From Reticulascus tulasneorum (lineage: Eukaryota; Ascomycota; Sordariomycetes; Glomerellales; Reticulascaceae), in NCBI GenBank assembly GCA_001557505.1, contig LSAX01000010.1, positions 186,001-250,000 on the forward strand: a stretch of 64,000 bases of DNA, written 5' to 3'. Positions within the stretch are counted from its first letter, which is position 1. Each line of letters starts with the position of its first letter. Under the pieces are notes generated by a model. The model had not been told where the DNA came from and searched no databases. It worked only from the letters and a program-made list of their open reading frames with translations. The position numbers and the translations under genes are program-made. Positions 38,087 through 39,261 of the stretch are shown here, one piece after another.

Positions 38087-39113
38087 CGCAAAGTCTCGCC
38101 GTGGGAATAATCGCTGACGCAGGCAGTGGAATGAGATACTGTACTAGTGCTAGGCTCGAGCAAGTGTGGAGTTTTGTATGTATTGAATGGGATGCTGTGA
38201 ACTTAGGTCCCGAATGCACTCGGTCGGTTGAGTCCAATTTCAATACTTTCATCGGCGAAGCGCCTATCGCGAACTTCACTTGTCTTGGATCAGGGAATAG
38301 CTATCTTCGCGGGTAGCTTTATTATGCATGCCAAATAAGGCCAATGTCTCAGACTAGCAAGCCTGCGCTCGACGCACGATGTTTGGGTTGCGATGCTTCG
38401 GTTGAACAGGACGTTGTTGTGCCTGAGCAGAGCTCGTCGAGCTGAACTCGGCCGGGTGGGTGATCGTGGGAGGCACACATGACCACAGCCTCGCAGCGAA
38501 AAGCCATCGGCCGCATTATCACATTGGGCGCGCTGCCCACTGATTGCGTGCTGGTTTTGCCTGAAAGGTCAGAATGGACTCTCCTGATGAAGCGGAATCT
38601 AGACACAAATGCCGATGACTCGAGTCATTTTGGCTTTTTTTACCCACCTCTCAGCAAGTACACAGAGAACTTCAGCAGAGTGATGGATGGAACTGAGGAT
38701 AGATCGGTAATTTCAGTGGAGTGGCGCCCACTAAAACAAAGTAGCCCAGGACCCCATTGAATCGTAGAGTCAGGCATGTTGAGTATGTAGACCTGAACCT
38801 CACTACATTTTAGATGGTGTGAATGCATGGCATATGAAGTAATCACGAAAACCGAATGAGAGAAGACGAGATGCAAAAAAACTTTCAGCATGTTCAAGAG
38901 CTCCTTACCAGTAATCAGAATCAATTTCGTAGTGTGGTAGTCCACGAGTCTTCCCACTGATTTCCCTCAAATTGCTGCCTCAGCCCAGGCCCCCACTTCA
39001 GCATCCTCATCTTCCCTAGAACTAGCAGACGAGGAAGAATGAATGGATCCAAGAATAGAGGAAGGCTAGATGTCGCAAAAGAAGACGAGAGTAGAAAAAA
39101 TAGGCAAAAAAGC
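38087..39113. other. intergenic region between HET gene and tRNA
   Basis: This 1.0 kb holds the promoter of the HET-ankyrin gene at its left end. Open frames at 38479-38760 and 38640-38957 show no features. The right end is A-rich and runs into the tRNA terminator. Confidence 0.5.
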
Positions 39114-39119
39114 AAAAAA
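39114..39119 (-). terminator. RNA polymerase III terminator of the tRNA-Ser gene
   Basis: On the tRNA strand a run of six T starts eight bases past the discriminator base, and a second T6 run follows shortly after. Runs of four or more T end polymerase III transcription. No such run occurs inside the tRNA gene or its intron. Confidence 0.85.
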
Positions 39120-39126
39120 GAGAAAT

Positions 39127-39261
39127 CGATGAAGGCAGGATTTGAACCTACGCGGCCGAAGCCATATGATTTCTGAAGAGCTCAGTTAGGATTGGGTTAT
39201 TGTAGTGGGTTATGATTAGAACATACCTAGTCATACCCATTAACCACTCTGGCACTTCACC
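39127..39261 (-). tRNA. tRNA-Ser (anticodon AGA) split by a 54-nt GT-AG intron inside the anticodon
   Basis: Exon 1 is 39261-39227 (35 nt) and exon 2 is 39172-39127 (46 nt), giving a mature 81-nt tRNA. The acceptor stem GGTGAAG pairs with CTTCATC (one G-T pair), and the discriminator is G, as for serine. The D stem is CCA/TGG and the anticodon stem TATGA/TCATA. The loop after removal of the insert is CTAGAAA, with U33 and anticodon AGA. The long variable arm (TGGCTTCGGCCGC), T stem GTAGG/CCTGC and T loop TTCAAAT are all standard, so the gene looks functional. The B box GGTTCAAATCC is perfect. The insert begins GTATGT, contains CCTAAC 14-15 bases before its end and closes with TTCAG. It splits the anticodon between positions 35 and 36, not at the usual 37/38. 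A cut at 37/38 would give anticodon AGG, which does not fit a serine tRNA body. Confidence 0.88.
39173..39226 (-). other. intron within the tRNA-Ser gene, spliceosomal-type signals
   Basis: The 54-nt insert has donor GTATGT, branch-like TCCTAACTG and acceptor CTTCAG, the same signals and size as the protein-gene introns in this window. Because AG occurs at both junctions, moving both boundaries two bases upstream (33/34) gives the same product, so the exact cut cannot be set from DNA alone. The insert also contains AATCATA, a near copy of the 3' anticodon-stem strand. Confidence 0.8.

Follow-up and report, generated by a model that had tools for sequence, protein, structure and literature searches.

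The window that we analyzed, 64,000 nt of Reticulascus tulasneorum DNA (C3:186001-250000 of a 42.8 Mb genome in 35 contigs), carries a tRNA-Ser(AGA) gene flanked by two long open reading frames on the same strand (Table 1). An acetyl-CoA carboxylase from the window (residues 600-1500 searched) finds its best named matches among Sordariomycetes, including Colletotrichum, Fusarium and Verticillium, with identities of about 79-81%; a fucosidase search added nothing to this placement. A sequence-only reading had proposed that a tRNA-Ser cloverleaf forms once 54 nt are removed between positions 35 and 36, and the Rfam tRNA model, ARAGORN and the stem pairs all agree with this. Unspliced, the gene is spanned end to end by RF00005 (41.2 bits, E 2.7e-05), with the insert placed in the anticodon loop. 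When introns are allowed, ARAGORN calls tRNA-Ser(aga) with a 54-nt intron. Using a cloverleaf script, we find that every stem of the spliced molecule is paired throughout (acceptor 7/7, D 3/3, anticodon 5/5, T 5/5) and that it has a 13-nt variable arm and the discriminator G73; its 7-nt anticodon loop reads CUAGAAA. We also built two covariance models and applied them to the window and to the loci retrieved from the genome. A small serine model built here gives Ser(AGA) 82.2 bits, a score that is not independent because the spliced Ser(AGA) is one of the model's four training rows. Two folding results count against this reading: the RNAfold minimum of the spliced sequence is not a cloverleaf, and in the unspliced RNA exon 1 preferentially pairs with the intron to form a hairpin, partly through a repeated AATCATA. 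This motif is present twice, in the intron (39217-39211) and in exon 2 (39171-39165), and the intron can therefore mimic the 3' side of the anticodon arm.

Table 1. Parts of the tRNA-Ser(AGA) locus, in window positions, and spliceosome-type inserts of the 13 other interrupted tRNA genes (contig coordinates begin with C)
Feature	Position	Strand	Basis
tRNA-Ser(AGA) gene	39261-39127	minus	sequence; Rfam RF00005; ARAGORN
Exon 1, 35 nt, positions 1-35 (acceptor 5' strand, D arm, anticodon stem 5' strand, C32 U33 A34 G35)	39227..39261	-	sequence, RF00005, cloverleaf script
54-nt spliceosome-type intron, inside anticodon (35/36)	39173..39226	-	sequence, structure, splice signals
5' splice site GTATGT	39221..39226	-	sequence
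Branch-site-like CTAAC, 13 nt after branch A	39185..39189	-	intron signal tabulation
3' splice site TTCAG	39173..39177	-	sequence
Exon 2, 46 nt, from A36 A37 A38 (anticodon stem 3' strand, 13-nt variable arm, T arm, acceptor 3' strand, discriminator G73)	39127..39172	-	sequence, RF00005
A box TGCCAGAGTGG, intact; assigned by the A-box consensus	39244..39254	-	read from sequence
B box GGTTCAAATCC, intact	39138..39148	-	sequence; matched by B-box + T-run pattern
Pair of T6 runs a short way downstream, resembling a Pol III terminator	39106..39119	-	sequence, B-box + T-run pattern
Arg(ACG), insert in D loop			
Lys(CTT), two genes, insert in D loop of each			
Leu(AAG), first gene, insert in D loop			
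Leu(AAG), second gene, insert 26/27			
Ile(AAT), insert in D loop			
Leu(TAG), insert in D loop			
Leu(CAG), L160, D-arm insert ATAAGT...ACTAACT...CCAC (AT-AC) and 11-nt 37/38 intron	C17:3563600-3564050		
Thr(TGT), insert 29/30			
Arg(TCT), insert 34/35			
Asp(GTC), insert 50/51			
Lys(TTT), insert in variable loop			
Pro(CGG), L129 with L161, GT-AG inserts in the D loop, at 34/35 and at 50/51, plus a 37/38 intron of 24 nt, making four introns for a 72-nt tRNA	C2:1348725-1349049		

The insert starts with GTATGT, contains CCTAACT with 13 nt following the branch A, and ends in TTCAG. These signals had been likened to those of local protein-gene introns, and the five protein-gene introns of the window do have similar ends, branch sites and lengths (50-66 nt, GT.NG, CTAAC or CTGAC, AG). 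We located those five from homologous proteins and picked their splice sites by eye; an ORF-joining finder had yielded nothing and then noise. The proposed junction needs one refinement. Registers 33/34, 34/35 and 35/36 all give the identical serine product, and only 35/36 has GT-AG ends. Four removals within 8 nt are equal on structure, exactly one of which has the donor-branch-acceptor pattern. Mononucleotide shuffles of the insert produced this pattern in 0 of 400 cases, and dinucleotide shuffles with the identical-product registers produced it in 71 of 20,000. The best reading of the locus is a functional tRNA-Ser(AGA) gene with what appears to be a spliceosome-type intron inside its anticodon.

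The sequence-only reading had also raised the prospect of several intact tRNA-Ser(AGA) copies elsewhere, and our pattern and DNA searches of the genome found none. Used as a DNA query, the Ser precursor matches only itself (E up to 10), and a genome pattern for an intron-free serine tRNA with GACT has no match. The pattern TAGAAA...GGTTC has 15 matches in the genome, none of them a tRNA (all 15 by cmscan at the gathering threshold, four also by eye and by a permissive scan), and among the nine matches to a 5'-half pattern the window locus is the only tRNA. A T-arm variant pattern gave 51 matches: 14 were retrieved for their plausible spacing and contain no tRNA, and the remaining 37 comprise 14 organellar matches and 23 judged by spacing alone. 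With one mismatch allowed, a Ser/Leu A-box pattern has 64 matches including the window gene, namely 13 organellar, three known Ser genes, one inside a retrieved locus, 18 that we retrieved and 29 nuclear ones left unretrieved; the 18 yielded Leu and Ser(GCT) genes, with no Ser(AGA) among them. The window locus is the only Ser(AGA) gene detected in the genome by these searches, whose pattern matches were retrieved in part and which could miss intron-free copies whose T arm is unusual or that lack a T5 run, above all copies of genes other than Ser(AGA). Other serine genes in the genome include an intron-free Ser(TGA); Ser(CGA) and one Ser(GCT), both with a short 37/38 intron; and a second, uninterrupted Ser(GCT). 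UCU and UCC account for 127 of the 327 serine codons in five coding pieces of the window (4306 codons).

We then surveyed the genome with a pattern that combines a B box (GGTTCRANNCC) with a nearby T5 run and so misses genes that lack either or have a broken B box. It has 148 matches, as against 10 in a reversed control, or 89 against 9 after removal of most duplicates; that no intron lies in a B box is a bias of this search, because the survey needed the B box intact. Contigs C8-C11, C13, C14, C24 and C26-C31, which are small and have repeated tRNA sets, are presumably organellar and were set aside. Contigs C8, C10 and C26-C31 share their tRNA sets, several of which lie on both strands of a single contig; an organelle genome would look like this if its assembly had produced inverted repeats. 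By hand count, the matches listed include 47 nuclear loci that combine a B box with a T run: 32 resolved tRNA genes, two tRNA-like loci and 13 loci judged not to be tRNA. The last have no ARAGORN call and no Rfam match at E 0.1; some of them may hide split tRNAs, because the heavily split Pro(CGG) gene (L129) is also missed by ARAGORN and Rfam. A genome family search with RF00005 scored 63 of 1362 candidates, mostly organellar, and provides no inventory. The pattern CTAAC...YAG...B box has nine genome matches, as against 20 in the reversed control, and the three retrieved were the window Ser gene, Arg(ACG) with its D-loop insert and one non-tRNA.

The two tRNA-like loci are L124 (C1:1596277-1596557), which has a 37.5-bit Rfam tRNA match, and L152 (C32:574843-575123); the middle of each defies structure assignment. 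L136 and L100, the latter outside the 47, were counted as tRNA on the ARAGORN call, and our cloverleaf script has no single-intron solution for either. ARAGORN reads L136 (C12:1518702-1518982) as Gly(CCC) with a 104-nt C-rich insert at 37/38, the ends of which look able to pair with each other. L127, L151 and L156, and likewise L140, L146 and L154, form two three-member families of similar loci with B boxes and T runs and no Rfam match, perhaps new Pol III RNAs or SINE-like elements. Filamentous ascomycetes are expected to have a larger nuclear tRNA set than the one seen here, which looks small: in the 32 resolved nuclear genes, no anticodon is present more than twice, and five are present twice.

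Spliceosome-type inserts are present in 14 of the 32 resolved genes, which puts the number in the genome at 14 or more. These genes contain 16 such inserts of 52-60 nt, 15 with GT-AG ends and one with AT-AC ends, and three of the 16 split the anticodon. The others lie in the D arm, at 26/27, at 29/30, in the variable loop and in the T stem. A 37/38 intron is also found in 11 of the 14; the 18 resolved genes without a spliceosome-type insert comprise 12 with a 37/38 intron and six with none. Once the inserts are removed, the acceptor (7/7), anticodon (5/5) and T (5/5) stems are fully paired in all 14 genes, and the D stem has 3/3 pairs in 13 and 2/3 in Lys(TTT), where the anticodon stem was counted in the two-intron reading. 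In Arg(TCT), at 34/35 of Pro(CGG) and in Lys(TTT), one long 37/38 insert ties on structure score. We prefer two introns there on three grounds: the bodies of Arg(TCT) and Pro(CGG) are similar to Arg(TCG) and Pro(TGG), which this genome also has; a normal variable loop results for Lys(TTT); and none of the splice signals is missing. The boundaries of the D-loop inserts were picked with the help of the motif, because the length of the D loop is flexible. For Leu(CAG), structure alone leaves a single solution, the one with AT-AC ends.

For each GT-AG insert, we varied position and length by up to 8 nt and collected every removal that, judged by structure only, is no worse than the chosen one, which left 2-145 options per insert. 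Exactly one option carries the full splice pattern (GT[AG]NG, a branch-like YTRAY and AG) in each of the 15. Mononucleotide shuffles gave the pattern in 0 of 400 cases for 12 of the inserts; for the other three, Arg(TCT), the first Leu(AAG) gene and Pro 34/35, they gave it in 1, 2 and 5 of 400, respectively. The 5' ends read GTA[ACT]G in 15 of the 16 inserts and ATAAGT in the other, and every one of the 16 contains a YTRAY whose A is followed by 10-14 nt. Spliceosomal removal of the Ser insert had been called conceivable; 13 further tRNA genes with the same signals make that reading look stronger.

We consider it highly probable that the only detected Ser(AGA) gene has its anticodon split by a 54-nt spliceosomal intron, that the spliceosome removes it from a likely Pol III precursor, and that the gene is one instance of a genome-wide pattern. 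The sequence shows the gene structure, the splice signals, their recurrence in other tRNA genes, and exons that stayed the same beside introns that diverged in one gene pair, and our searches turned up no further Ser(AGA); transcription, spliceosomal removal and the order of the two splicing reactions are what we infer. The Ser precursor would most likely be made by RNA polymerase III, with A box, B box and T run all present. The spliceosome would recognize GTATGT, CCTAACT and TTCAG, the intron would leave as a lariat, and the joining of AG to A would restore the anticodon AGA, with A36, A37 and A38 in place. The 37/38 introns, 23 of which are tabulated here and 11 of which lie in the same genes, would be left to the usual tRNA endonuclease and ligase. 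It counts against this reading that Pol III transcripts are not usual spliceosome substrates. Transcripts of other polymerases than Pol II can nonetheless be substrates, because yeast spliced lichen spliceosomal introns out of engineered Pol I rRNA transcripts, as described in passages of PMC8527467.

In a variant of the same explanation, RNA polymerase II would make the precursors, splicing would proceed as for an mRNA, and the tRNA would then be trimmed out. The spliceosome normally acts on Pol II transcripts, a point that part of PMC8527467 makes, and the two long reading frames on either side of the window gene run in its direction. Set against this are the intact A and B boxes of the window gene and the T runs 3' of the surveyed genes, which are in keeping with Pol III, with the reservation that the survey itself required a B box and a T run; we hold the Pol II variant to be improbable, with a small chance of being right. 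T runs within the introns do not help here: none of the 16 contains a run of five or more, 1.2 were expected, and with a probability of 0.27 for finding none, we regard their absence as uninformative about Pol III.

The inserts might instead be non-canonical introns that the tRNA endonuclease cuts, with a GT-AG appearance that is coincidental or arose as a by-product. Many tRNA genes here have canonical 37/38 introns, and non-canonical tRNA introns are described for archaea, a red alga and nucleomorphs in parts of PMC4090602 and PMC3978253, including endonuclease-type introns in Cyanidioschyzon and ectopic introns in nucleomorphs. The two intron classes are unlike in length, in their ends and in bulge-helix-bulge pairing. 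The 23 tabulated 37/38 introns, a set that leaves out the 104-nt 37/38 insert of Gly(CCC) at L136, are 9-26 nt long; none begins with GT, one ends with AG, and none has GT...AG or CTAAC. On a bulge-helix-bulge-like score of our own design, the 16 spliceosome-type inserts average 4.28, which is the level of random pairs (4.25), and two of them reach 5.5 (the first Lys(CTT) gene and the Pro D loop). The 22 canonical junctions scored average 5.61, with 16 of 22 at 5.5 or above, and these values can only have been lowered, because at a few junctions the nearest exon bases are still intron. The Ser junction scores 4.5 against a random mean of 4.25, so the bulge-helix-bulge that had been named as contrary evidence does not stand out there. 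Together with the single structure-compatible removal per GT-AG insert that has donor, branch and acceptor, this leaves endonuclease cleavage of the inserts very unlikely. We dropped ARAGORN as a test of junctions: it returns the expected anticodon for 14 of 14 genes with both intron classes removed and for 12 of 14 with the 37/38 intron kept, and it also called tRNA in 69 of 112 deliberately shifted removals.

A marginally weaker proposal is that the interrupted genes are dead or decaying copies and that other genes supply the tRNAs. Our survey would favor such a view to the extent that it was limited to tRNAs whose GGTTCRANNCC is intact and that have a T5 run close by. Decay is hard to reconcile with the paired stems of all 14 genes, the T runs just downstream of the genes, the lack of any intact Ser(AGA) in the searches above, and the Lys(CTT) pair. 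The mature sequences of these two genes are identical over 73 nt, despite D-loop introns with 47 of 62 columns in agreement (the mean for shuffled sequences is 50%) and 37/38 introns and 5' flanks that agree in 14 of 26 and 37 of 68, respectively. The two Leu(AAG) genes are identical in 73 of 83 columns; changes in their anticodon stems match across the two strands, and their inserts are at different positions. We found no support for a repeated element as the origin of the introns: in 120 intron pairs compared, clear likeness is confined to the Lys(CTT) pair, and the Ser precursor has no genome match besides itself.

Least credible of all is a Ser gene cut at 37/38 by the endonuclease, which would yield a serine tRNA with the anticodon AGG and put serine at proline codons: such a 54-nt canonical insert fits structurally (24.7 versus 26.5 for 35/36) and ARAGORN with introns fixed at 37/38 returns Pro(agg), in line with what the sequence-only reading had derived for this cut, but it leaves U37 where the 13 other mature sequences all have A or G, while the 35/36 junction restores the AGA-A-A loop and carries all three splice signals. 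The catalytic core of a group I or group II intron takes hundreds of nucleotides; for an insert of 54 nt, in a window whose sole gathering-threshold Rfam match is the tRNA, we judged self-splicing unlikely.

With introns fixed at 37/38, ARAGORN calls six of the 14 loci, five of them with an anticodon that differs from our reading, and 7 of the 13 loci other than Ser(AGA) pass the threshold of the Rfam tRNA model when unspliced. As described in part of PMC8450103, tRNAscan-SE 2.0 checks for non-canonical introns in candidates of its archaeal search model; we therefore predict that fungal genes of this kind may be missed or misassigned. An annotation blind spot for tRNA genes with such introns is likely.

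Beyond the single locus, it is probable, if somewhat less so than the reading of the Ser gene, that tRNA production in this fungus takes two unrelated machines. The spliceosome would serve at least 14 nuclear tRNA genes, with up to three of its introns in one 72-nt tRNA, three of 16 splitting anticodons and one of the AT-AC type, and the endonuclease would act at 37/38; the decoding of UCU, UCC and other codons would then depend on mRNA splicing of Pol III transcripts. If this holds, the spliceosome can process Pol III tRNA precursors, translation capacity is coupled to mRNA splicing, and the genome offers many natural substrates for asking what confines the spliceosome to Pol II transcripts.

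To our knowledge, all known tRNA introns are either removed by an endonuclease or self-splicing. Canonical 37/38 introns resemble the inserts described here in that they interrupt nuclear tRNA genes, and both occur together in most of the interrupted genes; unlike the inserts, those tabulated here are short, lack GT...AG ends and CTAAC, and have more junction pairing. Some fungi have spliceosomal introns in their U6 snRNA genes, and these share with the present case a Pol III gene with a spliceosomal intron; they differ in that U6 is itself a spliceosome component and that single genes are concerned, as opposed to a large part of the tRNA set.

The ectopic introns of Cyanidioschyzon merolae and of cryptophyte nucleomorphs likewise sit at non-canonical positions, several to a tRNA gene, but passages of PMC4090602 and PMC3978253 describe them as having a bulge-helix-bulge or, in Guillardia, as being 3-24 nt long with an unknown route of removal, and do not describe GT-AG ends. 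The sequence-only reading had held that nuclear tRNA introns lie at 37/38 and are cut by the endonuclease. The first part is too narrow, as other positions are known from the red-algal nucleus and from nucleomorphs (PMC4090602, in part); the second fares better, in that those cases are endonuclease-type or unexplained and not GT-AG. In the open-licence PMC papers searched, we found no report of spliceosomal introns in tRNA genes. Also close in kind are the spliceosomal introns that lichen-forming and other ascomycetes have in their nuclear rRNA genes (Bhattacharya et al., 2000, cited in a passage of PMC8527467). Like the inserts here, these are short, spliceosomal and located in a structural RNA that Pol II does not make, and the spliceosome is assumed to excise them. 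They differ in concerning rRNA and Pol I, not tRNA, a word absent from the main text of PMC8527467, and in occurring alongside many degenerate group I introns. The intron type itself looks to be a known one, and what appears to be new is its place in tRNA genes, at this scale.
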